From assembly GCF_014083945.1 (NCBI RefSeq), contig NZ_CP046444.1:1736001-1800000 (forward strand): a stretch of 64,000 nt of DNA. The letters are read 5' to 3'. Each line of letters begins with the position of its first letter. Within the stretch, counting starts at the first letter, position 1. Below the pieces are notes generated by a model, which saw only the letters and a list, made by a program, of their open reading frames with translations, did not search any database and was not told the origin of the DNA. Below, piece after piece: positions 1 to 60,546 of the stretch. This DNA comes from Granulicella sp. 5B5 (GTDB taxonomy: Bacteria; Acidobacteriota; Terriglobia; Terriglobales; Acidobacteriaceae). The position numbers and the translations under genes are program-made.

Positions 1-2484
<2,484 letters not shown>

Positions 2485-46200: not shown

Positions 46201-46316
46201 CGCAGCCCGGCCCGCTGGCCAGGGCGCTGCCTGTCGGAGTCGCTCGCACACGCAGGCACAGACTGTGTCTTGCAGGGCTGAATCTTGCTATTCAAAGAGC
46301 TCGCGCTCACTCGCAT
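43287..46316 (-). CDS. bamA: Outer-membrane protein assembly factor BamA
   Basis: A protein of about 1009 residues that folds beta-barrel proteins into the outer membrane. After the signal peptide (GATLGAALLFAAVPG, cleavage near VEAQS) come POTRA domains (for example IGNRRIPKESILARLFSRPG, IREINYKGLNAVSVSDVLD, GGITFSGNKAYSNSKALRAQ, ISRIEFTGNTITRDKVIRRE). The barrel begins near NSIGLNGGISGLSGSFLG and contains the lid-lock motif in GGENEVRGFDIRSSSPY. It ends LTVSTTF. The start is placed at ATG 46316, which gives a long n-region; an open frame continues to 46487, so this start is uncertain. Length exceeds E. coli BamA (810) through barrel-loop insertions. It is divergent from frr. Confidence 0.95.
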   Translation of the reverse strand: MRVSASSLNSKIQPCKTQSVPACASDSDRQRPGQRAGLRRIGVGATLGAALLFAAVPGFSTSVEAQSSAPIKAPQRFSADQAPQPLCQPQVIGNRRIPKESILARLFSRPGDPYDPAVVERDFNSLWNTGYFDDVRIERIDTPACVQLEIYVREKPTIREINYKGLNAVSVSDVLDRFKKEKVGLTVESQYDPTKVKRAEVVLQEMLGEHGHQFATIKTEIKTIPPAAVSLTFNVKEGPTVKVGKIAFDGNKALNHRELVEAMKNLKPIGIPHSIILENIFPRTFDASKLDEDAERVRQAYRDKGYFKAITGEPQTNVRNAGGINPLTLHPSTGKRVDILIPVEEGERYRLGGITFSGNKAYSNSKALRAQFAVKDGEYFNATLFGKGLEALRKAYGEGGYINMVGTPTPRVDEAKKLVYLNVDIDEGKPFYISRIEFTGNTITRDKVIRRELLVEEGQVYNSRLVDLSLLRLNQLNYFDTLKSDTDVETRQNADNNTVDLLIKLHEKGKNSIGLNGGISGLSGSFLGTNYETNNFLGLGETLSVNANIGDLSRNLSLGFTEPYLRNKPVSLGVQVFDSKFDYNPAKSYAIANGQSANLTNAQNSLLNNYNQSTKGVTLSTSTALRKLFRRSGVARVGISYSLSRSGITTFNQNTLNVFQTLAFRSGVAGQDQLNGIVTSMITPSFSFSTLDRAVGPHNGKDFNVAVQIAGAGGNTKYYAPSVSFRQFFPMKGLKVSREGHNVLGYRLLFSTIGGYGGEVAPPFARIYSGGENEVRGFDIRSSSPYTFIPTKVNFNLTNPDGSPVPRDPTNPALGNVTIPLPIYRLSAVGGDTNFTANLEYRIPIVNQVTFALFTDFGMDFDLQSAQLRQSVQGVSTLNSPLYGCPTIINGACFGGQSVKFPLYLNTVPGSNYVPRMSNGGELQVVLPIVNAPLRLYYAYNPLRLYKSLPQQLALPIYCSAGSTACFRNLFPNSEAGLYSFQQAVQFYGADYLLREPRKTFRLTVSTTF

Positions 46317-46943
46317 TCCGGAAAAGATAACCACACCCTCACTGCTCTTTGATTCTGTTGAAACTCGTGCCCTGCGTCTGACGAAGGGAGAGTCTTGATT
46401 ATAGGCGACCTGCTGCAACCTGAGCGACCCCTCGGCCGCCTTCGCAACCCTTTCTGCGTCTATCTTCTTCACACCCGGCCCGGACAAACCGCCTCCGGAT
46501 CGTTTGGACGCCGCGCAGAATCGCCTGAGGAGGCGTTTTCGCGCAGCCGCAACTAACAGGAAAGCCTCACAGGCTTCCCCGACTTCAGGAAAACACTTTG
46601 GCTATTTAACGCTGTCTGCAGGGCTTGGTGAGCATCGCCAGGTCGGTCTGTTTCAGAAACAGCTCCATTTCGGCCTGCATCTGCTTTCCCGCGCGCAGGG
46701 CCGGCATGTCGGAATTCGGGTTCTTCACCTTCAAAAATCACCGGGGCCGGCCGCGTCCCGTCTATACATCAGCGGCACACTGCGCTCTGGCGCGGCGTAA
46801 ACCACCGTCACATGCCGCCCTGTCTCCCTCTCTCTCTGCCCTGCAATCTCCGCCGCTGGCTCCCGGCGCTGTAAAATCTCCTCTGGCAGGTCAGCGGCCA
46901 GGTTTGGCCGGCACTACAGTCTCTCCCAGTGAAAGGAAACACA
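46317..46943. other. Intergenic region between bamA and frr
   Basis: A 627-base gap. Apart from the small open frame at 46606-46728 it holds no convincing gene. A short CGCCT/AGGCG hairpin followed by TTTT lies near 46524-46543. No clear sigma70 promoter for either gene could be picked by eye. Confidence 0.4.
46606..46728 (-). CDS. Possible small protein, 40 residues
   Basis: A frame starting GTG at 46728 (or TTG at 46734) and ending TAA at 46606. It reads MKNPNSDMPALRAGKQMQAE and then a charged, helical stretch ending in CRQR. Third codon positions are strongly G/C, like the real genes here and unlike a random frame. No clear ribosome site was found. It lies upstream of bamA on the same strand. 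Not recognised; may be a short regulatory or orphan peptide, or chance. Confidence 0.35.
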   Translation of the reverse strand: MKNPNSDMPALRAGKQMQAEMELFLKQTDLAMLTKPCRQR

Positions 46944-47528
46944 ATGGCATCGGTGATGGCAGCAATGGAGGGTCTTTCGGGCGTCTACGAAGACCTCAAG
47001 ACGCGCATGAACAAGACCGTGGACGACTTCCGCGCCAACCTCGTCAGCGTCCGCACCGGCCGCGCCTCCGTCCACATGCTCGACGGCATCCGCGTTGACT
47101 ACTACGGTACCGAGACGCCTCTTTCTCAGGTCGCCCAGCTCACCGCCCCTGAGGCCACCCTCATCCTCGTCCAGCCTTGGGAACAGACTATGGTCACCCC
47201 CATCGAGAAGGCCATCCGAACCAGTGGCCACGGCTTCAACCCCATGCACGACGGCAAAATCATCCGCGTCCCCATCCCGCCCATGACCGAGGAACGCCGC
47301 AAAGACACCGTCAAGCAGCTCGCCGGCACCGTCGAGGACCACAAGACCTCCATCCGCAACATCCGCCGCGACGGCAACGAACAGGTCAAGAAGGCCGCCA
47401 AGGACAAACTCATCTCGGCTGACGACGAAAAGCGCGCCAACGAAGAGATCCAGCAACTCACCGACTCCGAGATCAAACGCATCGAGGAGCTCTTCAAGGC
47501 CAAGGAAAAAGAAGTCCTCACCATCTGA
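46944..47528 (+). CDS. frr: Ribosome recycling factor
   Basis: A 194-residue factor that, with EF-G, splits the post-termination ribosome. Conserved segments: KTVDDFRANLVSVRTGRASVH, YGTETPLSQVAQLTAPE, GHGFNPMHDGKIIRVPIPPM and TEERRKDTVKQLAGTVEDHK, ending KEKEVLTI. The ATG at 46944 has AAGGA seven bases upstream; a GTG at 46929 would add five residues without a better site. A 14-bp terminator follows directly. Confidence 0.97.
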   Translation: MASVMAAMEGLSGVYEDLKTRMNKTVDDFRANLVSVRTGRASVHMLDGIRVDYYGTETPLSQVAQLTAPEATLILVQPWEQTMVTPIEKAIRTSGHGFNPMHDGKIIRVPIPPMTEERRKDTVKQLAGTVEDHKTSIRNIRRDGNEQVKKAAKDKLISADDEKRANEEIQQLTDSEIKRIEELFKAKEKEVLTI

Positions 47529-47549
47529 GCCTGACCGCAAGCCATTCCC

Positions 47550-47590
47550 AAAAGGGGAGAGCCAGCAACGGCTCTCCCCTTTTCGCTTCT
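47550..47590 (+). terminator. Terminator after frr
   Basis: A perfect 14-bp stem, AAAAGGGGAGAGCC (47550-47563) with GGCTCTCCCCTTTT (47570-47583), loop AGCAAC, T-rich end. Confidence 0.92.
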
Positions 47591-47591
47591 G

Positions 47592-47704
47592 GGTAGCCCA
47601 AGCCTTTAGGCAGTCCCGATCCTTGAGTTAGCCCATTCACGGTAGCCCGAGCCTTTAGGCTCGGGTCTCACAGGCTCGTAACAAGATGAGGGGGCTTTAG
47701 CCCC
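47592..47704. repeat. Cluster of TTTA-loop hairpin elements
   Basis: GGTAGCCCAAGCCTTTAGGC (47592-47611) and GGTAGCCCGAGCCTTTAGGC (47641-47660) differ at one base and start 49 bases apart. The second extends to a perfect hairpin CCCGAGCC-TTTA-GGCTCGGG (47646-47665). A third hairpin GGGGC-TTTA-GCCCC (47691-47704) follows before the tyrA stop. They may terminate the tyrA operon but look like a dispersed repeat type. Confidence 0.65.
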
Positions 47705-47715
47705 AGAGGGCTTAC

Positions 47716-48582
47716 TTACCGCTTCGCCCGAAACTTGTTCGCCGTCGCGAACTCGTCGCGCAGCTCCGGCGTCCGCAGGTTCTCGCGGATATGCGCCAGC
47801 CGCTGCTCCAGCGCCAGCAGCGTCTCCGCAATCGGCTTCGTGTTGGTCATCGCGACATCGCGCCACATGCTGTACGGGCTCGACCCCAGCCGTGTCGTCT
47901 CGCGCAGCCCGCGTCCCCCAATCGCCTGCACCGCGGCCATCCCCTCCGCATCATGCGAGAACGTGTCCTGCAGCAGCGCCGCCAGCGCGGTCGAGAGCAT
48001 CTGCGGCAGATGGCTCACCCACGCGCACACCTCATCATGCTCCACTTCGTCGATGTCGCGGATGACAGCCCCCATCGCCGCCACCAGCTCCCGCCACCGT
48101 TCAGCCAGCGGCGTGTCCCCTGCGGCCACCGGCGTAAACAGCCAGGTCGCCCCTTGAAACAACGTCGCATCTGCCAGCGCCGCCCCGCCGGACTCTTTGC
48201 CTGCCATCGGATGCCCCGGCAGAAACGCCGCCTGCCCCGACCCATTGAACAGCGTCTCCGCCAGCCCGCAGATCTCCACCTTCGTGCTGCCGACATCTGT
48301 AATCAGCTGCCCGGCATGCGTGGCCGGCGCCAGCTTCTCCATCCAGTCCAGAATCACCAGCACCGGCACCGCAAGCACATAAATCTCCGCCGCATCGCGC
48401 GCTAGCACCTCTTCACGGCCCGCCAGCACGCGATCAATCGCGCCAATCTCCAGCGCCTTCGCGGACTCCGCCGGGTTCACATCAAACCCAACAATCTCGC
48501 CCCGAAACCCCGACGCCCTCAGCGTCAGCCCTATCGACGCACCAATCAGCCCCGTGCCGACAATCGCGATACGTTCGGTCAC
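47716..48582 (-). CDS. tyrA: Prephenate dehydrogenase
   Basis: A 288-residue NAD(P)-dependent enzyme that makes 4-hydroxyphenylpyruvate (or tyrosine from arogenate). The Rossmann motif is VGTGLIGASIGLTLR; the substrate region has ITDVGSTKVEI, LPGHPMAGKESGGAALADATLF and SHLPQMLSTALAALL. There is no chorismate mutase or ACT domain fused to it. The start is GTG at 48582, overlapping the proA stop by four bases (GTGA). It is the last gene of the trpB-to-tyrA unit. Confidence 0.95.
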   Translation of the reverse strand: MTERIAIVGTGLIGASIGLTLRASGFRGEIVGFDVNPAESAKALEIGAIDRVLAGREEVLARDAAEIYVLAVPVLVILDWMEKLAPATHAGQLITDVGSTKVEICGLAETLFNGSGQAAFLPGHPMAGKESGGAALADATLFQGATWLFTPVAAGDTPLAERWRELVAAMGAVIRDIDEVEHDEVCAWVSHLPQMLSTALAALLQDTFSHDAEGMAAVQAIGGRGLRETTRLGSSPYSMWRDVAMTNTKPIAETLLALEQRLAHIRENLRTPELRDEFATANKFRAKR

Positions 48583-49973
48583 CGCGCCTCGCTCTTGCGC
48601 CGGTGCGTAAACGCCCGCCCCTGCGCCCCGCGGTAGTCGCCAGCGACATGCCCCGCGCCGCGCACCACATATTTGTACGTCGTCAGCCCATCGAGCCCCA
48701 CCGGCCCGCGCGCATGAAATTTGCTCGTCGAAATCCCAACCTCGGCCCCAAACCCATACCGGAAACCATCTGCAAATCGTGTGGACGCATTGTGCATCAC
48801 GCTCGCCGCATCCACCTCCCGCAGAAACCGCTCCGCGACCTCGGCGTCCTCCGTGATGATGCTCTCCGTGTGCACCGAGCCATGCTCGTGAATATGCTCC
48901 ATCGCTGCATCGAGCGACGGCACCACACCCACCGCCATCTCTAGCTCGCCGTACTCGGTATGCCAGTCGTCCACCGGCAGCGCACTCATCATTGCGCGCG
49001 CAACGTCATCGCCATGTAGCACCACGCCACGCTCTCGCATCCGCTCCGCCAGCTTTGGCAAAAAGTCGCCGGCGATAGCCGCATGCACCAGCACCGTCTC
49101 CACCGCATTGCACGACGCCGGATAGTCCGTCTTCGCATCGTCGATCACGCGCAGCGCCAGCTCTTCATCCGCCGCGCGGTCCACATAGATGTGGCACACG
49201 CCCTCGGCATGACCCAGCACCGGGATGCGTGTGTTCGCCTGCACATACTCCACCAGCTTCTTCGTCCCGCGCGGAATCACCATGTCCACCAGCGAGTGCA
49301 TCGCCAACAGCTCATTCACACGCTCGCGCCCCAGCACCAGCGACACCGCAGCCGCAGGAAGTCCCTCCGCAGCGAGCGCCTCGCGCAGCACCCGCACCAG
49401 CGCCATCGCCGTACGCTCCACCTCGCGCCCCGGCTTCAGGATCACCGCATTGCCACTCTTGATCGCCAACGCCGCAATCTGCGTCACCGCATCCGGCCGC
49501 GCTTCAAAGATCACCGCCACCACACTGAGCGGCACGCTGATCTTCTCCATGTGCAGCCCGGAAGTTTTTTTGTTGTCATTCCCGTAGGGAATCTGCGTTT
49601 TGGATATCTCCGGATCGCGATCATCCAGCTCCACCGCATCCAGCACACGCCCCAGCGGATCAGGCAGCGCCATCACCGACCGCACCTGCTCCACCATCTC
49701 GCGCAGCTTGCTATCAGTCAGTTTCAGACGCGCCATCGTCGCCGCCGACAACGCATCCTCGCCCGTCAGCGACACCGCAACCTTCAGGTCTTCAGCGTTG
49801 GCGGCAAATAGCTCTGCGCTCGCGCCTTCCAGCGCCTTCGCCATCGCCTCCAGCGCAGCATTGCGTCGAGCCTCATTCAGCGGGGCCAACACCCGCGCCG
49901 CGGCCTTCGCCGCCTGCGCAATCTCCTGCGTGCTTAACACATCGTCACGCACAGGAGCAGCGGCCGTACTCAT
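48579..49973 (-). CDS. proA: Glutamate-5-semialdehyde dehydrogenase
   Basis: A 464-residue NADPH-dependent enzyme, second step of proline synthesis. It is an aldehyde-dehydrogenase-fold protein with VIFEARPDAVTQIAALAIKS, ILKPGREVERT, VIPRGTKKLVEYVQ and the catalytic Cys in DYPASCNAVETVLVH; the C-terminal half has HTEYGELEMAVGVV and FGAEVGISTSKFHARGP. It begins four bases inside the proB stop (ATGA) and ends four bases inside the tyrA start, so all three are translationally coupled. Slightly longer than usual (about 420) through N- and C-terminal tails. Confidence 0.96.
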   Translation of the reverse strand: MSTAAAPVRDDVLSTQEIAQAAKAAARVLAPLNEARRNAALEAMAKALEGASAELFAANAEDLKVAVSLTGEDALSAATMARLKLTDSKLREMVEQVRSVMALPDPLGRVLDAVELDDRDPEISKTQIPYGNDNKKTSGLHMEKISVPLSVVAVIFEARPDAVTQIAALAIKSGNAVILKPGREVERTAMALVRVLREALAAEGLPAAAVSLVLGRERVNELLAMHSLVDMVIPRGTKKLVEYVQANTRIPVLGHAEGVCHIYVDRAADEELALRVIDDAKTDYPASCNAVETVLVHAAIAGDFLPKLAERMRERGVVLHGDDVARAMMSALPVDDWHTEYGELEMAVGVVPSLDAAMEHIHEHGSVHTESIITEDAEVAERFLREVDAASVMHNASTRFADGFRYGFGAEVGISTSKFHARGPVGLDGLTTYKYVVRGAGHVAGDYRGAQGRAFTHRRKSEAR

Positions 49974-50833
49974 CGCAGCACTTCCTGCAGCATCGGAGCA
50001 GGCGCAAACCGCGTGCCTACAGTCTCGCCTGCAACAATTCGCTCCAGCACCTGCGGCGTGCGTCCATTCGCGATGATCACCGGCTTGTTCGCACGCACGA
50101 CGATCCGCGCGCTCTCCAGCTTCGAGATCATCCCGCCGCGCCCGCGCCCGTTGCCGCCCTGGGCCAGCGCAAGAATCCGTTCGTCGATCTCCTCCACGCC
50201 ATGCAGCATCTTCGCGTTCGGCTCGCTCGGATTGCGGTCGAACAGCCCGTCCACATCCGACAGCATCACCAGCAGGTCCGCGCCAATATGCTTCGCCAGC
50301 AGCGCCGACAGCTTATCGTTGTCGCCAAAGATCCGCTCGCGCTGCGGCAGCTCCGCCGGCCTGTCCAGCTCCGCTGTCGACACCGTATCGTTCTCGTTCA
50401 CAATCGGAATCACGCTCAACGTCAGCAGCGCATCCAGCGTCGCCCGAAGGTTCGCATGACGGTCGGAATCGCGGAAGTCGTCCTCGGTCAGCAGCACCTG
50501 CGCAATCGGGCATCCCAGGCGGTCGAACGCATCGTCATACAGCGCCATCAGCCGCGACTGCCCGATAGCCGCGCACGCCTGCACCTGCGCCACCACGGTC
50601 GGCCTGCGCGTCAGCCCCAGCCGCTCCATGCCCAGACCCACCGCACCCGACGACACCATCAGCACCTCGATGCCCTGTGTCCGCAGCGAGGCAATCTGTT
50701 CCACAAGCCCGCACAGCAGCCCCAGTGCGACCTTGCCATCCGGCCGCATGATGACGTTCGTTCCGAGTTTGACGACGATCCTGCGCAACTTCGTACTCCC
50801 TTGCACAACACTCACCCGCGAAATCTCTGCCAT
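49970..50833 (-). CDS. proB: Glutamate 5-kinase without PUA domain
   Basis: A 287-residue amino-acid kinase, first and normally feedback-inhibited step of proline synthesis. Motifs: RRIVVKLGTNVIM, VSSGAVGLGMERLGL, VNENDTVST, FGDNDKLSALLAKHIGADLLV, LSDVDGLFDRNP and GRGRGGMISKLESARI. The C-terminal RNA-binding-like PUA domain of E. coli ProB is missing, as in several lineages. It starts six bases after the aroF stop and overlaps proA by four bases. Confidence 0.96.
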   Translation of the reverse strand: MAEISRVSVVQGSTKLRRIVVKLGTNVIMRPDGKVALGLLCGLVEQIASLRTQGIEVLMVSSGAVGLGMERLGLTRRPTVVAQVQACAAIGQSRLMALYDDAFDRLGCPIAQVLLTEDDFRDSDRHANLRATLDALLTLSVIPIVNENDTVSTAELDRPAELPQRERIFGDNDKLSALLAKHIGADLLVMLSDVDGLFDRNPSEPNAKMLHGVEEIDERILALAQGGNGRGRGGMISKLESARIVVRANKPVIIANGRTPQVLERIVAGETVGTRFAPAPMLQEVLR

Positions 50834-50839
50834 GAACTC

Positions 50840-51883
50840 TTACGCATGTACCTTCTCGACTGCCGGTGCAATCGTGCGGTCGACCACAGGTGCGAGCTTC
50901 CGCAACTGCTCCACCAGTTTGGTCAACTGCTCCGGCGTCAACGACTGCGCGCCATCGCTCATCGCCTTGTCCGGGTTCGGATGCATCTCCATCAACAGAC
51001 CGTCCGCACCCGCGGCCACCGCAGCGCGCGCCATCGGCGGAACAAACTCGCGGATGCCCACACCGTGCGAAGGATCGCCGAACACCGGCAGGTGCGTCAG
51101 CTTCTTCAGCACCGGTATCGCCGAGATGTCCATCGTGTTGCGCGTGGCTGTCTCGTAGGTCCTGATACCGCGCTCGCACAGCATCAGGTCGTAGTTGCCA
51201 CCGCTCAAAATGTACTCCGAGCTCAGTAGCACCTCCTCAATCGTCGCCGCGATGCCGCGCTTCAGCAGCACCGGCTTGCGCACATGGCCCAGCTCGCGCA
51301 GCAAGTTGAAGTTCTGCATGTTGCGCGCGCCCACCTGGAAGCAGTCGATGTACTCCAGCATCGTCTCGATCTGCGAGATCTCCATCACCTCGGTAATCAC
51401 CAGCAGGCCATGCTCATCCGCGGCCTCGCGCATGATCTTCAGGCCTTCAACGCCCATGCCCTGGAAGCTATACGGCGAGCTGCGCGGCTTGTAGGCTCCT
51501 CCGCGCAAAAACTGAGCTCCCGCAGCAGCCACCTGCTGCGCGCTCAGGCGAATCTGATCCTTGCTCTCCACCGAGCACGGCCCGGACATGATGACGATCT
51601 CCTCGCCACCCACCACCACGCCATTTGGAAACGTGATCCGCGTGCCCTCCGGCCGGAACCCGCGCCCAGCCAGCTTGTACGGCGACGAAATCCGATACGC
51701 CTGGTGCACGCCACTCAGCACCTGAAACTCCGTCACCTCAAAGTGCGCCGGCGTACCGACGCCCGCGAGAATGGTCTGCGTCTCACCTGTAGTCCGGTGG
51801 ACGTTGAAACCGAGCTCCACCATGCGCTCGATCACATGTTGTATCTGTTCATCGGTGGCTTTGTCCTGCATTGCGACGATCAT
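50840..51883 (-). CDS. aroF: 3-deoxy-7-phosphoheptulonate synthase with N-terminal ACT-like domain
   Basis: A 347-residue DAHP synthase, first step of the shikimate pathway. Residues 1-70 (MIVAMQDKATDEQIQHVIER, TQTILAGVGTP) form the ferredoxin-like regulatory domain of the AroA-beta type described in Thermotoga, which mediates feedback inhibition. The catalytic TIM barrel has IVIMSGPCSVES, LRGGAYKPRSSPYSFQG, FQVGARNMQNF, KPVLLKRGIAATIEE and VFGDPSHGVGIREFV, with Cys, Lys and metal-ligand His in place. ATG at 51883 is preceded by GTG at 51886; AGAGGA fits either. Confidence 0.95.
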   Translation of the reverse strand: MIVAMQDKATDEQIQHVIERMVELGFNVHRTTGETQTILAGVGTPAHFEVTEFQVLSGVHQAYRISSPYKLAGRGFRPEGTRITFPNGVVVGGEEIVIMSGPCSVESKDQIRLSAQQVAAAGAQFLRGGAYKPRSSPYSFQGMGVEGLKIMREAADEHGLLVITEVMEISQIETMLEYIDCFQVGARNMQNFNLLRELGHVRKPVLLKRGIAATIEEVLLSSEYILSGGNYDLMLCERGIRTYETATRNTMDISAIPVLKKLTHLPVFGDPSHGVGIREFVPPMARAAVAAGADGLLMEMHPNPDKAMSDGAQSLTPEQLTKLVEQLRKLAPVVDRTIAPAVEKVHA

Positions 51884-51962
51884 CACGTTGTTCCTCTTCT
51901 ATCTCAGGTCTTTCGAATCTTTCCCGCTTGTCTTTGCGGTTGCACTTGCTTTTCTTTCTTTC

Positions 51963-51985
51963 CATTCCGAGCGGAGCGAGGAACC
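51963..51985. repeat. Possible copy of a widespread dispersed repeat
   Basis: CATTCCGAGCGGAGCGAGG, in the 130-base gap between aroQ and aroF, resembles a short element (CATTCTGAGCGAAGCGAAG) that I remember as common in intergenic DNA of several bacterial phyla. Only one copy was seen in this window. Confidence 0.35.
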
Positions 51986-52013
51986 TGCTTCTCGCGTCCG
52001 CGCCACAAATCCC

Positions 52014-52271
52014 TTACTGCTTCTGCAGCGAACGCATCACATCCATAATCCGTTCGTACACGTCCTGCACCTGCGCTCCCGAAAGCGGCCCTGGGTTCAC
52101 CGACCGCACATGCTCAAACACGCTCTGCTCCCGCTGCGGTTCATAGATGGGTGCGCTGGCCTTGGCCTTCAACTGCCCAATCGCCACGGCCGCGGCCGCT
52201 CGCTCGCTCAACAAACGGACGATCTGTTCGTCCAACTCATCAATCTTCTTGCGCCAGTCGGCGATCTCCAT
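52014..52271 (-). CDS. aroQ: AroQ-type chorismate mutase
   Basis: An 85-residue, free-standing, all-helical mutase converting chorismate to prephenate. The first helix reads MEIADWRKKIDELDEQIVRL with the active-site Arg, followed by LLSERAAAAVAIGQLKAKAS (second Arg and Lys) and YEPQREQSVFEHV. The start ATG at 52271 follows AAGGACAAGGA; a TTG at 52289 would add six residues. It lies between trpA and aroF, and such mutases often form complexes with DAHP synthase, which fits their adjacency. Confidence 0.93.
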   Translation of the reverse strand: MEIADWRKKIDELDEQIVRLLSERAAAAVAIGQLKAKASAPIYEPQREQSVFEHVRSVNPGPLSGAQVQDVYERIMDVMRSLQKQ

Positions 52272-52337
52272 GCGTCCTTGTCCTTCCAACAGAATCTTTA
52301 CTGAACTCGTTAAGATGATACGTCTTTCACTACGTCC

Positions 52338-53114
52338 TCATGCGCCAATCTCCGCGCCTTTCAAGCTCTTTACAAACTCACCGACAGCCTTCGGAGCATC
52401 CGCCGCCGCCGTCTTTTCGACCAATCCAACAATCGCGCTGCCAACCACCGCCGCATCCGCAAACGCGCCCACGGCCTGCACATGCTCCGGCGTGGACACG
52501 CCAAAACCCAGCGCGATCGGCAGCGTCGTAAACTGCTTCAGCCGCCGCACCAGCCCTTCGGCATCGGCAGCCAGCTCCGTCTGCGTGCCCGTAATCCCAA
52601 CCCGCGAGATGGCATACACAAACCCCTGCGAACTCTCCGCAATCGCCTTCAGCCGCGCATCCGGCGAGGTCGGAGCCGCCAGAAACACCGGCGCCAACCC
52701 ATACTTCTGCATCAGCGGCAGATACTCACCCGCCTCCTCGACGATCATGTCGGTCAGCAGCACACCATCCGCACCGGCATCCTTCGCAGCCTTCGCAAAC
52801 GCCTCCATGCCGTAGCGCACGACAGGATTGAGGTAGCTAAAAAGAATAATCCCCGCCTGCGGCCGCGCCGCGCGAATCTCCTTGCAGATGCCAAGCACAT
52901 CACTCAGCCGCGTGCCCTTCGCAACCGCGCGTTCGGATGCCCGCTGAATCACCGGCCCATCCGCCAGCGGGTCGCTAAACGGCACTCCCAGCTCAATCAC
53001 ATCCGCGCCATTATCGATGGCAGCAATCGCCATCTCCCGCGTCGTCGCAAGATCGGGATCGCCAGCAGTGAAGTAAATAACGAGACCGGGTTTGTTAGAG
53101 AACGTAATCGGCAT
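52338..53114 (-). CDS. trpA: Tryptophan synthase alpha chain
   Basis: A 258-residue TIM-barrel subunit that splits indole-3-glycerol phosphate and channels indole to TrpB. Motifs: YFTAGDPDL, VIELGVPFSDPLADGPVIQRA (catalytic Glu), SYLNPVVRYG, GVLLTDMIVEEAGEY (catalytic Asp) and LGFGVSTPEHV. It overlaps the trpB stop by one base (TGATG). The catalytic loop Asp region reads LTDMIVEEA, where LPDLPxEE is usual. The gap to aroQ is 66 bases. Confidence 0.96.
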   Translation of the reverse strand: MPITFSNKPGLVIYFTAGDPDLATTREMAIAAIDNGADVIELGVPFSDPLADGPVIQRASERAVAKGTRLSDVLGICKEIRAARPQAGIILFSYLNPVVRYGMEAFAKAAKDAGADGVLLTDMIVEEAGEYLPLMQKYGLAPVFLAAPTSPDARLKAIAESSQGFVYAISRVGITGTQTELAADAEGLVRRLKQFTTLPIALGFGVSTPEHVQAVGAFADAAVVGSAIVGLVEKTAAADAPKAVGEFVKSLKGAEIGA

Positions 53115-54364
53115 CAGCCCTTCGCCTCCACACCACTCAAATTCATCTCGCGCGTCATAATCCCAATGTCCTTGTCTCCGCGCCCGCTCACGTTCACCAT
53201 CAGAATCTTGTCCTTGCCCATCTTCGGAGCCAGCTTGATCGCCTCCGCCACAGCATGAGCCGACTCAAGCGCAGGAATAATCCCCTCCGTCCGCGACAGC
53301 ACCCGCACCGCATCCAGAGCCTCCGCATCCGTCGCACTCGTATACGTCGCGCGCCCCGAGTCATGCAGCATCGCATGCTCCGGCCCCACGCTCGCATAAT
53401 CCAGCCCCGCGCTCACCGAGTGCGTCGTCGCCACCTGCCCCGCATCGTCCTGCAGCACGTAGCTGTACGTCCCCTGCAACACACCCGGAACACCGCCGCC
53501 GATCTTCTGGAACCGCGCCGCATGCTCACCCAGCGCTGTGCCGCGGCCGCCAGCCTCCACACCGATCAGCGCAACGTTCTTCTCCGGAATGTACTCGTAG
53601 AACGCGCCAATCGCATTCGACCCGCCGCCGACGCAAGCCACAATCGCATCCGGCAGCCGTCCCTCGTGCTCCAGAATCTGCCGCTTCGACTCCTTCGAGA
53701 TCACGCGATGAAAGTCCCGCACCATCGTCGGATACGGATGCGACCCCAGCGCGCTCCCGAGAATGTAGAACGTCGTCCGAACATTCGTGACCCAGTCGCG
53801 CATCGCCTCATTGATCGCATCCTTCAGCGTCGCCGACCCGCTCGCCACGCCGCGCACCTCAGCCCCCAGCAGCCGCATCCGGAACACATTCAGCTCCTGC
53901 CGCCGCATGTCCTCCTCGCCCATGTAGACCACGCACTCCATGCCGAACAGCGCGCACACCGTCGCCGTCGCCACACCATGCTGCCCCGCGCCGGTCTCGG
54001 CGATAATCCGCTGCTTCCCCATCCGCCGCGCCAGCAGTGCCTGCCCCAGCGCGTTATTGATCTTGTGCGCGCCCGTATGCAGCAGGTCCTCGCGCTTCAA
54101 ATAAATCTTCGCCCCGCCAAGCGTCTCGGTCAGCCGCTTCGCAAAGTACAGCGGAGTCGGCCGCCCCACATAGTCCTTCAGCAGCCCATCCAGCTCTGCA
54201 TGGAACGCCGCGTCTTCCTGTGCCTGCGCGTAAGCAGCATCCAGCTCCAGCAACGCCGCCATCAGCGTCTCCGGCACATACCGACCACCGTACTTGCCAA
54301 AACGTCCCGGCACACTGCTCGCCGGCAGCGGAGCGGGAGAAACAATCGAAGCCGTTGTACTCAT
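53114..54364 (-). CDS. trpB: Tryptophan synthase beta chain
   Basis: A 416-residue PLP enzyme joining indole and serine. Motifs: [49 protein letters not shown] (PLP Lys about residue 102), [12 protein letters not shown] and [16 protein letters not shown] precedes the ATG at 54364 by about eight bases. It is the first structural gene of the trpB-trpA-aroQ-aroF-proB-proA-tyrA unit and lies directly downstream of the attenuator-like leader. Confidence 0.97.
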
Positions 54365-54403
54365 AGTCGCTATCCTCTGAGCTACTTCCTATTTCCTGTC
54401 TCG

Positions 54404-54440
54404 ACAAACACAAAAGCCGCAACCTTATCGGGTCGCGGCT
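54404..54440 (-). terminator. Attenuator terminator in the trpB leader
   Basis: On the minus strand AGCCGCGACC (54440-54431) pairs with GGTTGCGGCT (54424-54415), ten pairs with one G-U, loop CGATAA, followed by TTTGTGTTT. It stands between the leader peptide and trpB, about 40 bases before the trpB start, which is the position of an attenuator and not of an end-of-gene terminator. Confidence 0.75.
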
Positions 54441-54492
54441 CGGGGGGATTCTTGAGGCTCTTACGGTAAACCTGCTGCTTTTCCGTTCGAGA

Positions 54493-54570
54493 CTACTCCG
54501 CCGACGCCGCTACGGTAGGCCAGTAGCGGAACGGGAAAAACGGAGTAAATCGCGGGAACGAACGGTTCAT
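54493..54570 (-). CDS. Leader peptide of the trp-aro-pro operon (25 residues)
   Basis: A short frame with a good ribosome site (GAGG, five bases before ATG at 54570) and stop TAG at 54495-54493. The peptide has five Phe, four Pro, three Arg, one Tyr and one Trp; residues 11-18 are FFPFRYWP. On the minus strand CCGCTAC (54529-54523, codons Arg15-Tyr16) pairs with GTAGCGG (54513-54507), and GTCGGCGG (54505-54498) can instead pair with CCGCGAC of the terminator stem with one bulge. A ribosome stalled at Tyr16-Trp17-Pro18 would free the second strand and block the terminator; a ribosome at the stop would cover it. Function as an attenuation leader is inferred from this arrangement. Confidence 0.75.
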   Translation of the reverse strand: MNRSFPRFTPFFPFRYWPTVAASAE

Positions 54571-54658
54571 CGTACCTCTACGGTACACCGGCCGCGCTCA
54601 ACCCGCAACCCCGGCCACACGGCGCCCCATCACGACACATGCGTACACAAACAGTTAA

Positions 54659-54676
54659 CCCTTACAGAACTGTCAC
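54659..54676 (+). promoter_or_regulatory. Possible Pho-box-like site
   Basis: CCTTACAGAACTGTCAC contains one perfect Pho half-site (AACTGTCAC) and a poor second one. It lies in the gap between the leader peptide and the small His-rich protein. Weak evidence. Confidence 0.2.
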
Positions 54677-54813
54677 GAAAACGCCGCCACAATCACCATC
54701 CATCACGCGTACGCTCTAGCTGTCCGCGCATAAAGCGTTGCCTGGCCGCTCGCAACTTTTGAATCCACTCCCCACCCTGCGGCGTCCTATGGGTGTAGCA
54801 CAGGAGGATCACA

Positions 54814-55011
54814 ATGAAGAGCCTGAAACCGCTCAACATGTTGATTGCCCTGGCTGTTCTCGCTGCTCCCGCGGTAGCGTACGCGCACCCAACATCGGTG
54901 CCCGCACGCGGATACAGAACGACCGCACACAGGCTTACCGCCCACGTTGACCACACCGAGCAGGTACACACCAGGACGATCTCCGCACACCACACGCATA
55001 ACGCGTCCTAA
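54814..55011 (+). CDS. Small exported histidine-rich protein (65 residues)
   Basis: AGGAGG six bases before the ATG gives confidence that this is translated. A signal peptide (NMLIALAVLAAPAVAYA) would leave about 41 mature residues, eight of them His (AHRLTAHVDHTEQVH, AHHTH), with no Cys and few hydrophobics. Such a composition suggests metal binding in the periplasm or a low-complexity stress protein; neither is shown. It stands alone between the trp operon leader (divergent) and the histidine phosphatase gene (convergent). Confidence 0.7.
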   Translation: MKSLKPLNMLIALAVLAAPAVAYAHPTSVPARGYRTTAHRLTAHVDHTEQVHTRTISAHHTHNAS

Positions 55012-55084
55012 CGTACAACTTTGAGGGTCCTCGCGATGCAGCGCTCATCGCGATCTCACCTCGATCCATTCTCCCCCGCACAGC

Positions 55085-55693
55085 TCAATCCATCTTCCAC
55101 CGGGTTCCATCGAACTCCGCGGGCACAAGCTCGGTGTTCTGCACCCAGCGCTTGTCATCCAGCGCCCGAAACCCTCGCATCTTCTCGTGCGCGCTCCACT
55201 CCGGATGCAGCGCCGTCAGCCGCAGCGACTGGATAAAGTGCCCGTGCGTGAACACCAGCACCGGCGTCTCCGCATGCACGGCCTCCAGCCGCCTGAATGT
55301 GTCCTCCGCGCGCGCCAGCATCATCCCAAAGCTCTCCGCCCCGCCGCCGAAGCGTTCCTCCGGGTCCGCTTCATTCCAGTAGCGGTCCACCTCGTGCATC
55401 ATGTCCTTCGGCTCGCTGCCGCTCCAGTGCGCGGGGTCCCAGAACGTAAACTCATACACCGGCCACGTCTCCACCGGCACATCGGGAAACCTCGCAACCG
55501 TCGGCTGCGCCGTCTGCTGTGTTCGCAAAAACGGGGAGGCCGCAATCAGCCCCGGCGTAAACTCCCACCGCGCCGCCAGCGTCCTGGCCTGCTCCCATCC
55601 CAGCTCTGTCAGTGGAACCTCTGCAAAGTTCTTCGTAGGCAGCCCAATATTCGCGGTGCTCTGCCCGTGGCGGATAAAGATCGCTCGTATCAT
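55085..55693 (-). CDS. Histidine phosphatase family protein
   Basis: A 202-residue phosphoglycerate-mutase-like phosphatase. The catalytic motif is FIRHGQSTAN at the N-terminus, with LTELGWEQARTLA, ASPFLRTQQTAQ and the second catalytic His in VFTHGHFIQSLRL. The ATG at 55693 gives the family N-terminus; the frame remains open to 55777 but would overlap the trpF region without reason. It lies 52 bases after trpF on the same strand and may be co-transcribed. Substrate unknown. Confidence 0.92.
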   Translation of the reverse strand: MIRAIFIRHGQSTANIGLPTKNFAEVPLTELGWEQARTLAARWEFTPGLIAASPFLRTQQTAQPTVARFPDVPVETWPVYEFTFWDPAHWSGSEPKDMMHEVDRYWNEADPEERFGGGAESFGMMLARAEDTFRRLEAVHAETPVLVFTHGHFIQSLRLTALHPEWSAHEKMRGFRALDDKRWVQNTELVPAEFDGTRWKMD

Positions 55694-55745
55694 CGCTATC
55701 CAGTGTAGCGGGCATCCCTCGCACGCCGCGTTACAAACGCGCCCT

Positions 55746-56444
55746 TTACGCCGCGCCGTTCCCCTTGGACGTCTCAAGAAACGCCTTCAGCCTCGCCGGA
55801 TCTTTCTTCCCCGGCTCGGCCTCCACGCCGCTCGCGACATCCACCCCCCACGGCTCGACCGCCGCAATCGCCTCGGCCACGTTCTCCGCCCGCAGCCCAC
55901 CGGCCAGGATCACCTTCGGCGCATCATCGCCAAACGCCATCCGGGTCCGCCGCACAATCTTCCCTACCCGCTCCCAGTCGAAACTCAAGCCCAGCCCGCC
56001 GCTCGCGCCTGCCTTTTTCGCATCCAGCAGCACCGCCCATACCCGCTTGTCTCCAAACACCAGCCGCAGCGCGCCCTCGAACCGCGCGTCATGGTCCTGC
56101 CTGTCCACCGGGTCCAGCTCATACGCCATCGTCTGGATGATCTTCAGCCCGTCGCCGCACTCCTCCACCAAGTGCTGCACCATCTCCGCGCGATACGCCC
56201 CATGCAGCTGCACCGCCGTCAGCCCGGCCACATCCACGCCGTGCTGCACCTTGTACGGGTCATCGGTCGCAAACACCCCGACCTTCTCCACGCCCGCCGG
56301 CAGCCGCGCCACCATCTCCGCAGCCTCATCCGGAGTCACCTGCCGCTTGCTCGGCGCAAACACGAACCCTACCGCGTCCGCGCCCAGCTTCGCCGCCAGC
56401 CGCGCATCGTCAACGTTCGTATTGGCGCAGATCTTCGTCCACAT
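55746..56444 (-). CDS. trpF: Phosphoribosylanthranilate isomerase
   Basis: A 232-residue TIM-barrel isomerase, third step from chorismate to Trp. Motifs: KICANTNVDDARLAAKLGAD (the usual KICG-T reads KICANT), GFVFAPSKRQV, VGVFATDDP, VQLHGAY, LLDAKKAGASGGLGLSFDW and ILAGGLRAENV with GVDVASGVE at the end. The catalytic Cys is the one in KICANT. It starts two bases after the trpC stop, so the two are coupled; they are separate from trpBA about 1.4 kb away. Confidence 0.95.
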   Translation of the reverse strand: MWTKICANTNVDDARLAAKLGADAVGFVFAPSKRQVTPDEAAEMVARLPAGVEKVGVFATDDPYKVQHGVDVAGLTAVQLHGAYRAEMVQHLVEECGDGLKIIQTMAYELDPVDRQDHDARFEGALRLVFGDKRVWAVLLDAKKAGASGGLGLSFDWERVGKIVRRTRMAFGDDAPKVILAGGLRAENVAEAIAAVEPWGVDVASGVEAEPGKKDPARLKAFLETSKGNGAA

Positions 56445-56446
56445 GG

Positions 56447-57265
<819 letters not shown>

Positions 57266-57667
57266 CGTCTTCCATGCTACGTCACAACCCAGCACCGTTG
57301 GGTCGCCACCAGAACTGCCAACCCTCACAAGAACTTTTACAAGTTGCCACAAAAAACTTTGCTCACTTCGCGCTCTTGGCGGGATCGCTTCTTGTCCGAA
57401 CGACGCATACCCCCTTGACACGCCACGTACAATAGAAGCAGCAGGAAATAGCGCGGGCAACCGGGCTCTCCTACCCTTCTGGCCCAGGCCAGTCTCCACC
57501 GAAATTACTGACAACCACACCGCTCAAGGCAAGGATCAGACCTTCACAAGTCCACCCCTAACCCTTTTCCGCTCCGGATTTTAGATCAAAAAGTACCCAG
57601 GGGGAGGGGTGGGGTCCCTAACGAGCCGCACCTGTTCGTTAGGGTGCCAGGGGTGGGGTATCACGCC
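57266..57667. other. Intergenic region with G-rich element and inverted repeats
   Basis: A gene-free gap between trpC and the acnA terminator. It holds GGGGGAGGGGTGGGG at 57600-57614 and CCAGGGGTGGGGTA at 57647-57660, similar to each other, either side of an inverted repeat CCCTAACGA (57616-57624) / TCGTTAGGG (57636-57644). A short palindrome AACTTTTACAAGTT lies near 57335. No coding frame is convincing. Confidence 0.55.
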
Positions 57668-57706
57668 CCCAAAGCAAAGGCGCGAAGAGAACTCTCTCCG
57701 CGCCTT
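57668..57706 (-). terminator. Terminator after acnA
   Basis: AAGGCGCG (57677-57684) and CGCGCCTT (57699-57706) pair, with an inner AGAGA/TCTCT stem. On the minus strand the hairpin is followed by TTTGCTTT. Confidence 0.8.
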
Positions 57707-57726
57707 GCACTCACAGATCAGCCGCG

Positions 57727-60546
57727 CTACGCCTTGCCCGCCAGCTGCCGCAGCACATACTGCAGAATCCCGCCATGCTGGTAGTACAGGATCTCCTGCG
57801 GCGTATCGATCCGCACCACAGCAGCGAACTGCTTGGTCTTACCAGCAGCATCCGTAGCAATCACAGCCAGCTCCTTGCCACCGGCAAACTTGCCATCGAG
57901 CATCGCCTTCAGATCGCCCGGCTTGGAACCCAGCGTGAACGTCTCCTCGCCGGTCAACCCCAGCGACTCGACACTCTCGCCCGCCTTGAACTGCAGCGGC
58001 AGAATCCCCATCCCGACAAGGTTCGAGCGATGGATGCGCTCATAGCTCTCGGCGATCACGAACCGGATGCCCAGCAGCCGAGGCCCCTTCGCCGCCCAGT
58101 CGCGCGACGAGCCCGAACCGTACTCCTTGCCCGCCAGGATCGCCAGCGGCACGCCGCGCTCGGCATACTTTACCGAAGCGTCATAGATCGACATGCCCTC
58201 ACCCTCAGGCAGCAGCCGCGTCACACCGCCCTCCGTGCCCGGAGCCAGCTTGTTCCGCAGCCGCACATTGGCAAACGTGCCACGCACCATCACCTCATGG
58301 TTGCCGCGGCGGCTTCCATATGAGTTGAAGTCGCTCGGCTTCACGCCATGGTCCGTCAGGTACTTGCCAGCAGGCCCATTCAGCTTGATCGACCCAGCCG
58401 GCGAGATGTGGTCCGTCGTCACCGAGTCACCCAGCACCGCCAGCACGCGAGCGCCGCTAATGTCGTTCACTTCCGCTGGAGTTGCAGGCATACCGTCGAA
58501 GTAAGGCGCCTTCCGGATGTACGTCGAGTCCGGCTCCCAGCCATACACCTCGCCGCTCGGGAACTTCAGGTGCTGCCAGTTCGTATCGCCGTCGCTCACA
58601 GTCGCATACTGCGTCCGGAACATCGTCGAGTCGATGCAGCTCGCGACGGTATCCGCAACCTCCTGCTGTGTCGGCCAGATGTCCTTCAGGTACACCGGCT
58701 GCCCGTCCTTGCCCTTGCCAATCGCATCCTTGGCGAAGTCATGCTCAATATGCCCGGCCAGCGCATAGGCCACCACCAGCGGCGGCGACATCAGGTAGTT
58801 CGCACGGACCTCCGGCGAAATGCGCCCCTCGAAGTTCCTGTTGCCGGAGAGCACCGACACCGCAACCAGCCCATGCGCCTCAATCGACTTCGACACATCC
58901 GTCGGCAGCGGCCCGCTGTTGCCAATGCACGTCGTGCAGCCATAACCAACCGTCTGGAACCGCAACGCATCCAGGTACTTCGTCAGCCCCGCGCGGTTGT
59001 AGTAGTCAGTCACCACGCGCGATCCCGGTGCAAGCGAGGTCTTCACCCAAGGAGGCGTCGTCAGGCCCTTCTCCACCGCCTTCTTCGCCAGCAGACCCGC
59101 CGCAACCATCACGTAAGGATTGCTCGTGTTCGTACAGCTCGTAATCGCCGCGATGACGATCGAGCCGTCGGTCAGATACTTGTCCGGGTTCACATGGAAC
59201 CGCTCCTCCACCGAGTGAGGTTCAGCAACCGCAACAGCAGCACCTTCGCTGCTCGCCAGGTTTCCATTCGCGGAGGCGTGACCACCTTCACCCTCCCAGC
59301 GCACCATCTGCCGCACCACGCTCTTGTTGGCGTTCGGCCCTTGCAGCTCAGGCAGCTTCCTGGCAAAGCTCGCCGGCGTCTCCGACAGCAGCACACGGTC
59401 CTGCGGACGCTTCGGCCCCGCTACGCTCGGCTCCACCGTGCTCAGGTCCAGGCTCAGTGCCGCCGAGTACTCAGCCTCAACCGCCTCCGCCGTATGAAAC
59501 AGCCCCTGCGCCTTGTAGTACGCCTCCACCAGCGCAATCTGCTCCTCGCTGCGACCCGTCAGCCGCAGGTACTTCAGCGTCTCCGCATCCACCGGGAAGA
59601 TGCCGCACGTTGCCCCATACTCCGGAGCCATATTGGCGATCGTCGCACGGTCCGCCAGCGGCAGCTCGCTGATGCCCTCACCGTAGAACTCCACGAACTT
59701 GCCGACGACACCGAGCTTGCGCAGCATCTCAGTTACGGTAAGAACCAGATCTGTGGCTGTAGTCCCTTCCTTCAGCTTGCCCGTCAGCTTGAAGCCAACC
59801 ACCTGCGGCACCAGCATGCTCACCGGTTGCCCCAGCATCGCGGCCTCGGCCTCAATCCCGCCGACGCCCCAACCCAGTACGCCCAGCCCATTCACCATCG
59901 TCGTGTGGCTGTCCGTTCCAACCAGCGTGTCCGGATACGCTGTCACCGAACCGTCCGCCTCCGTCTTGGTAAAGCACACCCGCGCCAGGTACTCCAGGTT
60001 CACCTGGTGACAGATACCCATCCCCGGCGGCACGGCTGAAAAGTTATTGAACGCCGTCTGTCCCCACTTCAGGAACGCATAGCGCTCGCGATTGCGCGTA
60101 AACTCCAACGCCGCATTAAGGTCATACGCATTCGCAGAACCGTACTCATCCACCTGCACCGAATGGTCGATCACCAGCTCCGCAGGCTGCAGCGGATTGA
60201 TCTTCTCCGGATCTCCGCCGAGCACTTTCATCGCATCGCGCATCGCGGCTAGGTCGACGATCGCCGGAACGCCGGTGAAGTCCTGCATCAGCACGCGCGC
60301 CGGCATATACGCGATCTCGCGGCTTGGCTCGGCCTTCGCGTCCCAGTTCGCCAGGAACGTGATATCCTCCGCCGTCACCGTCTTGCCGTCCTCGTGCCGC
60401 AGCAGGTTCTCCAGCAAAATCCGCAATGAATACGGCAGCCGCGCCAAGTTCCCCTTCAGCGCATTCAGGTTGTAGTAGTTCACCGTCTGGTCGCCGCTCT
60501 TCAGCGTGGCGGCGGCGTGGAAGCTGTTCGGGTGCGTGTTCGACAT
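57727..60546 (-). CDS. acnA: Aconitate hydratase A
   Basis: A 939-residue [4Fe-4S] enzyme of the TCA cycle interconverting citrate and isocitrate. Cluster ligands are the Cys in [14 protein letters not shown] and the pair in [14 protein letters not shown]. Other conserved parts: [56 protein letters not shown], and the swivel-domain [16 protein letters not shown]. The ATG at 60546 gives the family N-terminus. A linker of about 40 residues between the main domains ([20 protein letters not shown]) is longer than usual. A two-tier hairpin lies in its leader. Confidence 0.97.

Follow-up and report, generated by a model that had tools for sequence, protein, structure and literature searches.

A predicted multi-codon aromatic attenuator preceding the trpBA-aroF-proBA-tyrA operon of Granulicella sp. 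5B5

Operon, leader frame, and hairpins

The stretch of DNA analysed here, 64,000 nucleotides of the Granulicella sp. 5B5 genome (referred to below as the window), contains on its minus strand a short leader frame followed by trpB, trpA, aroF, proB, proA, and tyrA in this order, the genes being assigned with Pfam and NCBIfam models. The features, all on the minus strand, are as follows.

54603..54608, minus: −35-like hexamer TTGCGG; the arrangement TTGNNN-16..18-TANNNT is common upstream of leaders
54580..54585, minus: −10-like hexamer TACCGT with GTG before it; ends 9 nt before the leader ATG and holds the conserved position of the family promoter
54493..54570, minus: leader peptide frame, 25 codons and TAG, MNRSFPRFTPFFPFRYWPTVAASAE; from the sequence, with homologous frames in relatives
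54520..54537, minus: switch window, codons F12 P13 F14 R15 Y16 W17; from the stall map, a ribosome stalled here being predicted to free strand 2
54520..54529, minus: strand 1 (CCGCTACTGG); from pairing with strand 2
54507..54516, minus: strand 2 of hairpin 1:2 (ACCGTAGCGG); from pairing across leaders
54501..54510, minus: 5′ side of the putative antiterminator, GCGGCgUCGG; fold predicted with the ribosome at Tyr16, core GCGGC invariant in 33 of 33 leaders
54435..54443, minus: 3′ side of the putative antiterminator, which is strand 3, CCGAGCCGC; core GCCGC unchanged in 33 of 33 leaders
54414..54441, minus: terminator hairpin 3:4, 11 pairs with a T-rich tail; from sequence and conservation
53114..54364, minus: trpB (TIGR00263, 627 bits against a cut-off of 392)
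52338..53114, minus: trpA (PF00290)
50840..51886, minus: aroF-type DAHP synthase with a ferredoxin-like domain (PF00793, PF18152; NF006421 over cut-off)
49970..50833, minus: proB (TIGR01027 over cut-off)
48579..49973, minus: proA (NF001221 over cut-off)
47716..48582, minus: tyrA, prephenate dehydrogenase (PF02153 and PF20463 over cut-off; NCBIfam models below their cut-offs)

Upstream of trpB lie trpC and trpF (55085-57520, minus strand, a span that also takes in the second of the two intervening frames), with a small plus-strand frame (54814-55011) and a frame resembling, by eye, a histidine phosphatase (55085-55777) in between. The ~450 nt preceding the open frames of trpE and pheA of the same genome contained no convincing aromatic leader, although one GTG frame before pheA passed the loose leader filter.

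The leader frame contains five Phe and four Pro residues and the consecutive Tyr16-Trp17-Pro18, exactly as an earlier sequence-only reading had described it. The 7-bp hairpin placed by that reading at the Arg15-Tyr16 codons is likewise present, CCGCTAC (54529-54523) pairing with GTAGCGG (54513-54507) on the minus strand. Its terminator, reported as a 10-bp stem (54440-54415) about 50 bases before trpB, extends to 11 pairs (54441-54414), is directly followed by TTGTGTTTGT, and leaves 50 bases to the trpB ATG (54364). A strand that can pair with the first arm of the terminator is also predicted, at 54510-54501 with 54443-54435; the strand originally named, 54505-54498, merely overlaps it. On the single sequence, the terminator stands only weakly above chance, since the region 44000-60000 holds 12 terminator-like sites against 10.0 (sd 2.8) in shuffled sequences, although that of the leader came first in the list.

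The AGAGG at 54579-54575, which the same reading took for a good ribosome site, probably belongs to the promoter. It directly follows the −10-like TACCGT of the element TTGCGG-17-TACCGT (54571-54608, minus strand), at the position of the family promoter, which puts the probable start of the transcript at the ATG or immediately before it. The arrangement TTGNNN-16..18-TANNNT preceded 70 of 105 leaders, as compared with 2.9 expected from mononucleotide shuffles, and the −10 box ended 9–10 nt before the ATG in 53 of these 70 in a scan that is blind to boxes nearer than 8 nt. When the distance limit was removed, the start of TANNNT fell at −16 for 33 of the 42 trpB leaders from other genera, and between −13 and −15 in 14 cases among the 18 trpB leaders of Granulicella. 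Shine–Dalgarno-like words occurred in just 8/105 and 5/37 leaders. The fixed distance of the −10 box and the rarity of such words suggest that the leader mRNAs are probably leaderless or nearly so.

Conservation among relatives and the genes headed by the element

Selected with a loose aromatic filter, an aromatic leader frame was present before trpB in 10 of the first 30 loci (L001–L008, L012, and L017); L010 and L015 of the same set held variants with the core FRYG, and L021 an unrelated frame. Of 298 genomes of the order, 64 contained a match to the pattern R-Y-W-x-[TP]-[VI]-A-A, compared with 1 for the reversed control pattern. Among its 73 matches, at least 9 were false to judge by their surroundings, lying inside long frames or lacking a leader, and 2 were not among the loci read, whereas the genuine ones conformed to F-x-[F/Y]-R-Y-W-x-[T/P]-[V/I]-A-A and preceded trpB, aroK, or DAHP synthase, mostly trpB. 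A covariance model, R1, was built from 33 of 61 leaders. It matched in all 28 genomes of the genus (E up to 0.001; matches confirmed by reading in part), in 58 of 150 sampled genomes of the family, that is, 31 of 79 genera (E up to 1e-7), and, on scanning the phylum, in 58 of 396 genomes. The matches outside the family came from 19 genomes, and loci from 16 of these were examined; six were read as leaders (L143–L145, L150, L151, and L167), and the other 10 were rejected as terminator-like or devoid of an aromatic leader. Nine matches from other phyla, left unread, were treated as chance, and the weak matches L253 and L272–L274 were dropped for want of a trpB, aroK, or aroF neighbour. L244, L248, and L249 lie upstream of trpB, yet have no leader passing the filter.

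The pairing was compared in 33 leaders; the automatic stem finder applied to the 61 failed or misplaced the terminator stem in some of them. Standard pairs were found in 97.4% of the alignment cells of hairpin 1:2 and the terminator together and in 98.7% of those of the 1:2 helix, with CG to UA double changes in six leaders. Changes on both sides were seen at five pairs (as many in 10 of 500 shuffles), and the covariation score of the two helices exceeded that of all 500 shuffles; in the count of further pair types, the helices were at shuffle level (276 of 500). One of the joint changes converts the Tyr TAC/Val GTA pair to TAT/Ile ATA. The 5-bp antiterminator core GCGGC/GCCGC was paired in 165 of 165 cells with zero variation, and covariation is therefore neutral on the antiterminator, whose pairs never vary. 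Strand 3 is constant although the terminator base opposite it is unpaired (3/33) or forms a G-U pair (4/33), which suggests that this strand has a second duty. In the N-terminal codons, changes at positions 1, 2, and 3 numbered 95, 89, and 142, respectively (83 overlapping pairs), a modest third-position excess. The sequence-only reading had named a lack of conservation of the leader frame or of the pairing in relatives as grounds for refuting it, and both proved to be conserved. As judged from this comparison, the leader frame, hairpin, and terminator are real and conserved, and their arrangement is clearly above chance.

In the alignment A1, the Phe codon three positions before the Arg codon is TTT in nearly all aligned leaders and the aromatic codon immediately before Arg ends in C; the Edaphobacter-type leaders of this alignment also carry a conserved TCATCTGA...TTCAG between the leader stop and the terminator, which could make an extra small hairpin.

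The element is not confined to trpB. A second copy in the same genome, outside the window (L131, C1:3118857-3118985, minus strand), reads MTTYLTYARFTYAYWWQPAALRSGARLP and precedes a shikimate kinase gene (aroK; Pfam SKI, 134.9 bits). A further 39 loci from other genera comprise 27 before DAHP synthase, 7 before chorismate mutase, 4 before shikimate kinase (aroK), and 1 at a contig end, DAHP synthase and most chorismate mutases being named by sequence motif and examples by Pfam. The six loci given above, from other families of the phylum, have leaders such as MFVDDRSRFYFYFYFPPSRGRGSMRAD, followed by a gene for prephenate dehydratase or DAHP synthase. These leaders are rich in Phe and Tyr (FYFYFYF, FYFYF, and YFYFYYFY), and L167 has two tandem terminators. 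Taken together, these targets suggest that an aromatic multi-codon attenuator, probably leaderless, heads a family-wide aromatic regulon, the regulation itself being predicted.

Predicted stall positions and mechanism

To map the consequences of ribosome stalling, the RNA was treated as blocked to 12 nt past the first base of the A-site codon, and the hold of the upstream RNA on the strand-3 GCCGC was scored before strand 4. On average over 61 leaders, this hold was −9.9 to −12.3 kcal/mol with the ribosome at codons −3 to +2 (Arg = 0) and −5.2 kcal/mol or weaker elsewhere, with −1.8 kcal/mol for the ribosome at the stop codon and −2.9 kcal/mol without a ribosome. The leader in the window gave −10.2 (F12), −9.9 (P13), −10.9 (F14), −10.9 (R15), −12.0 (Y16), and −11.2 (W17) kcal/mol, followed by −3.9 at P18 and −1.6 at the stop, and −4.5 or weaker at the other listed codons (−12 to +11). 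Escherichia coli trpL, run as a control, gave −8.3 (Trp10), −9.3 (Trp11), −9.3 (Arg12), −3.9 (Lys8), 0.0 (stop), and −0.2 kcal/mol (no ribosome). According to the model, capture of strand 3 requires a stall at one of the codons −3 to +2 around Arg15.

The aromatic codons are concentrated in this switch window. Because leaders were recognised partly by aromatic codons (through the filters and model R1), their total number is biased, and the test concerned only where they lie within the peptide. Of the 651 codons in the computed switch windows of 105 unique leaders, 380 (58%) were aromatic versus 269 of 1972 (14%) outside, and 0 of 5000 circular shifts gave as high a placement. The contrast persisted when the RYW codons, which the search pattern dictates, were removed (246/451 versus 269/1971), in the 61 representatives (223/393 versus 160/1209), and in a separate covariance-model set of 38 leaders (138/250 versus 139/918). 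Both the −8 kcal/mol threshold that delimits the switch window and the ribosome footprint were our choice; on moving the 3′ edge of the footprint from +10 to +15 in 48 leaders, the aromatic fraction went from 0.58 to 0.43 inside and from 0.13 to 0.18 outside, so that the contrast was kept. In these counts the ‘aroF’ group includes L135 (chorismate mutase) and L150 (prephenate dehydratase-DAHP synthase), and L051, L277, and L298 were left out of the energy maps, strand 3 not having been located. No codon at −8 kcal/mol or below was found in 3 of the 143 mapped leaders (1/105 and 2/38). The FRYG variants L010, L015, and L162 have lost Trp, and L162 is without any codon at or below this threshold.

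At this locus, a leader frame with regulatory codons precedes its cognate operon, an intrinsic terminator lies between the leader and the first gene, and, by computation, mutually exclusive helices are accompanied by regulatory codons placed to decide between them. With a probability of roughly 0.87, we interpret the element as a ribosome-operated transcription attenuator answering to any one of several aminoacyl-tRNAs; the frame, helices, conservation, targets, and aromatic placement come from the sequence and the stall map from energy models, while the regulation is a proposal. The trpL-type attenuator with mixed Phe, Tyr, and Trp codons before an aromatic and proline operon, as first proposed from the letters, is thus supported by the comparison with relatives and by the gene assignments.

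In the proposed mechanism, RNA polymerase would start at or just before the leader ATG, and a ribosome would load on the near-leaderless transcript. With ample charged tRNA, the ribosome would reach the TAG and cover strand 2, so that terminator 3:4 forms and transcription stops before trpB. When charged tRNA-Phe, -Tyr, or -Trp (here perhaps also -Pro) is short, it would stall in F12–W17 and cover strand 1; strand 2 would then pair with strand 3, the terminator would be pre-empted, and trpBA-aroF-proBA-tyrA would be transcribed. Without translation, hairpin 1:2 would form, making termination the default. When 11 leaders were folded at full length to minimum energy, the terminator was always present, even with the ribosome at RYW, and the antiterminator must accordingly win by the order of synthesis (a kinetic switch), as is assumed for known attenuators.

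We consider it unlikely that the element senses a single amino acid, with only the Trp (or Tyr) stalls counting and Phe and the other aromatics being bystanders of a hydrophobic or T-rich leader. Tyr and Trp do give the deepest values in the switch window (mean −12.1 and −11.7 kcal/mol), the first gene, trpB, is Trp-specific, and aroR of Corynebacterium glutamicum is reportedly indifferent to Tyr despite its Tyr codon (PMC11802643). However, whereas Tyr at +1 and Trp at +2 were imposed by the search pattern, Phe at −3 in 59 of 61 pattern leaders and an aromatic residue at −1 in 47 of 61 were not. Moreover, the same element stands before genes that contribute to all three aromatics (DAHP synthase, aroK, and chorismate mutase), and Trp is missing from the switch window of several DAHP synthase leaders.

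It is very improbable that the peptide RYWxTVAASAE itself stalls the ribosome when a free aromatic amino acid is bound, in the manner of tnaC. The strong conservation of RYW and VAA in the trpB leaders would fit such nascent-peptide arrest, but that of VAA is accounted for by the RNA pairing GTAGCGGC, in which the change of TAC to TAT is matched by that of GTA to ATA (Val to Ile); furthermore, many aroK leaders of the genus have Cys, Ala, Gly, or Tyr in place of the Arg, and their C-termini differ. That there is no switch at all, the frame being spurious and the hairpin a plain terminator or promoter-proximal roadblock, would agree with the near-chance number of terminators on the single sequence and the modest third-position excess, but is hardly credible given that the whole arrangement recurs before five kinds of aromatic-pathway target with the aromatic codons in a constant position with respect to strand 1.

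Proline codons and comparison with known attenuators

The sequence-only reading had added that Pro-tRNA is perhaps sensed as well. Within a fixed span of six codons (Tyr−4 to Trp), Pro was present in 15 of 18 Granulicella trpB leaders versus 1 of 40 trpB leaders elsewhere, and in none of the 19 Granulicella and 15 other aroK leaders; with the energy-defined switch window, the respective counts were 13/18, 2/42, 6/20, and 1/15. Pro occupies two positions in it, F-P-F/Y and P-S-Y/F, and is absent from it in three proBA-operon leaders of Granulicella (L077, L079, and L080). In 22 of 25 Granulicella genomes with a proB match, proB lies within ~6 kb on the contig of the leader, the other three having it on another contig (by eye). 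Across the family, proB (E up to 1e-30) was detected in 45 of 150 genomes and within 10 kb of trpB solely in this genus (by eye), so that there is no independent proBA event to test. The Edaphobacter-type operons that were read have the order trpB-trpA-aroF-tyrA without proBA, and no proB match at the same E value was obtained in the listed Edaphobacter- and Terriglobus-type genomes of the family set. One genome, G052, carries a proB 92% identical to that of the window beside a TrpB of 79% identity, perhaps a contamination of the draft genome. Proline as a family-wide signal was rejected: some Pro occurs in 27 of 42 trpB leaders of other genera, but within the switch window it is almost exclusive to the Granulicella lineage.

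A Pro codon in the switch window thus appears to mark the lineage whose operon includes proBA, and the link to proline sensing is only suggestive, since all cases belong to one lineage. Beyond this, we tentatively propose, at somewhat less than even odds, that the six-codon switch window works as an OR gate, responding to any of four amino acids from two unrelated pathways. A Pro codon (F-P-F-R-Y-W or T-P-S-Y-R-Y-W) would have been added when proBA entered a trpBA-aroF-tyrA operon in Granulicella, with proline shortage also switching the operon on, and a family-wide aromatic regulon (DAHP synthase, shikimate kinase, chorismate mutase, prephenate dehydratase, and trpBA-tyrA) would be under leaderless tri-aromatic attenuators. 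The coincidence of proBA and the Pro codon lends itself to a sharp and inexpensive test of whether sensor codons and operon content evolve together.

Among known systems, E. coli trpL resembles the Granulicella leader in that its codons overlap strand 1, its 1:2, 2:3, and 3:4 helices are exclusive, and its computed stall map has an equal shape; it differs in having just two tandem Trp codons and an operon that starts with trpE, and it has a ribosome-binding site. The enterobacterial ilvL (Ile/Val/Leu) and thrL (Thr/Ile) are multivalent attenuators, in which one leader holds codons for several amino acids of linked pathways, but they serve the branched-chain or threonine families rather than the aromatic one and do not involve proline. 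At the gathering score, no Rfam family, the Trp leader included, matched the leader in the window or those of 12 loci, the only hit being a tRNA in L286, and a T-box covariance model likewise gave no match at these leaders. The transcript of Sinorhizobium meliloti trpL reportedly begins with the ATG of the leader frame (PMC7298713), as is probable for the Granulicella leader, but that leader has Trp codons only and stands before trpE(G); a leaderless attenuator frame is also described for LeuL1 of Streptomyces (PMC8079986). No attenuator of this kind in Acidobacteriota was found in the literature searched, with the survey of Lopatovskaya and others (2010), which could list Acidobacteria, lying outside it.

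The nearest described case is aroR of C. glutamicum, a Phe-Tyr-Phe leader before aroF (DAHP synthase) reported to act by ribosome-mediated transcription attenuation (PMC4046766, PMC11802643), and the earlier statement that no mixed aromatic attenuator had been described fails on its account. The two are alike in their mixed aromatic codons, a DAHP synthase target, and the attenuation mechanism, reported for aroR and predicted here. They differ in that aroR belongs to another phylum, is reported to answer to Phe and not Tyr, and has neither Trp nor Pro reported, whereas the Granulicella switch window holds Phe, Tyr, and Trp (and Pro) and the family targets include trpB, aroK, and chorismate mutase.
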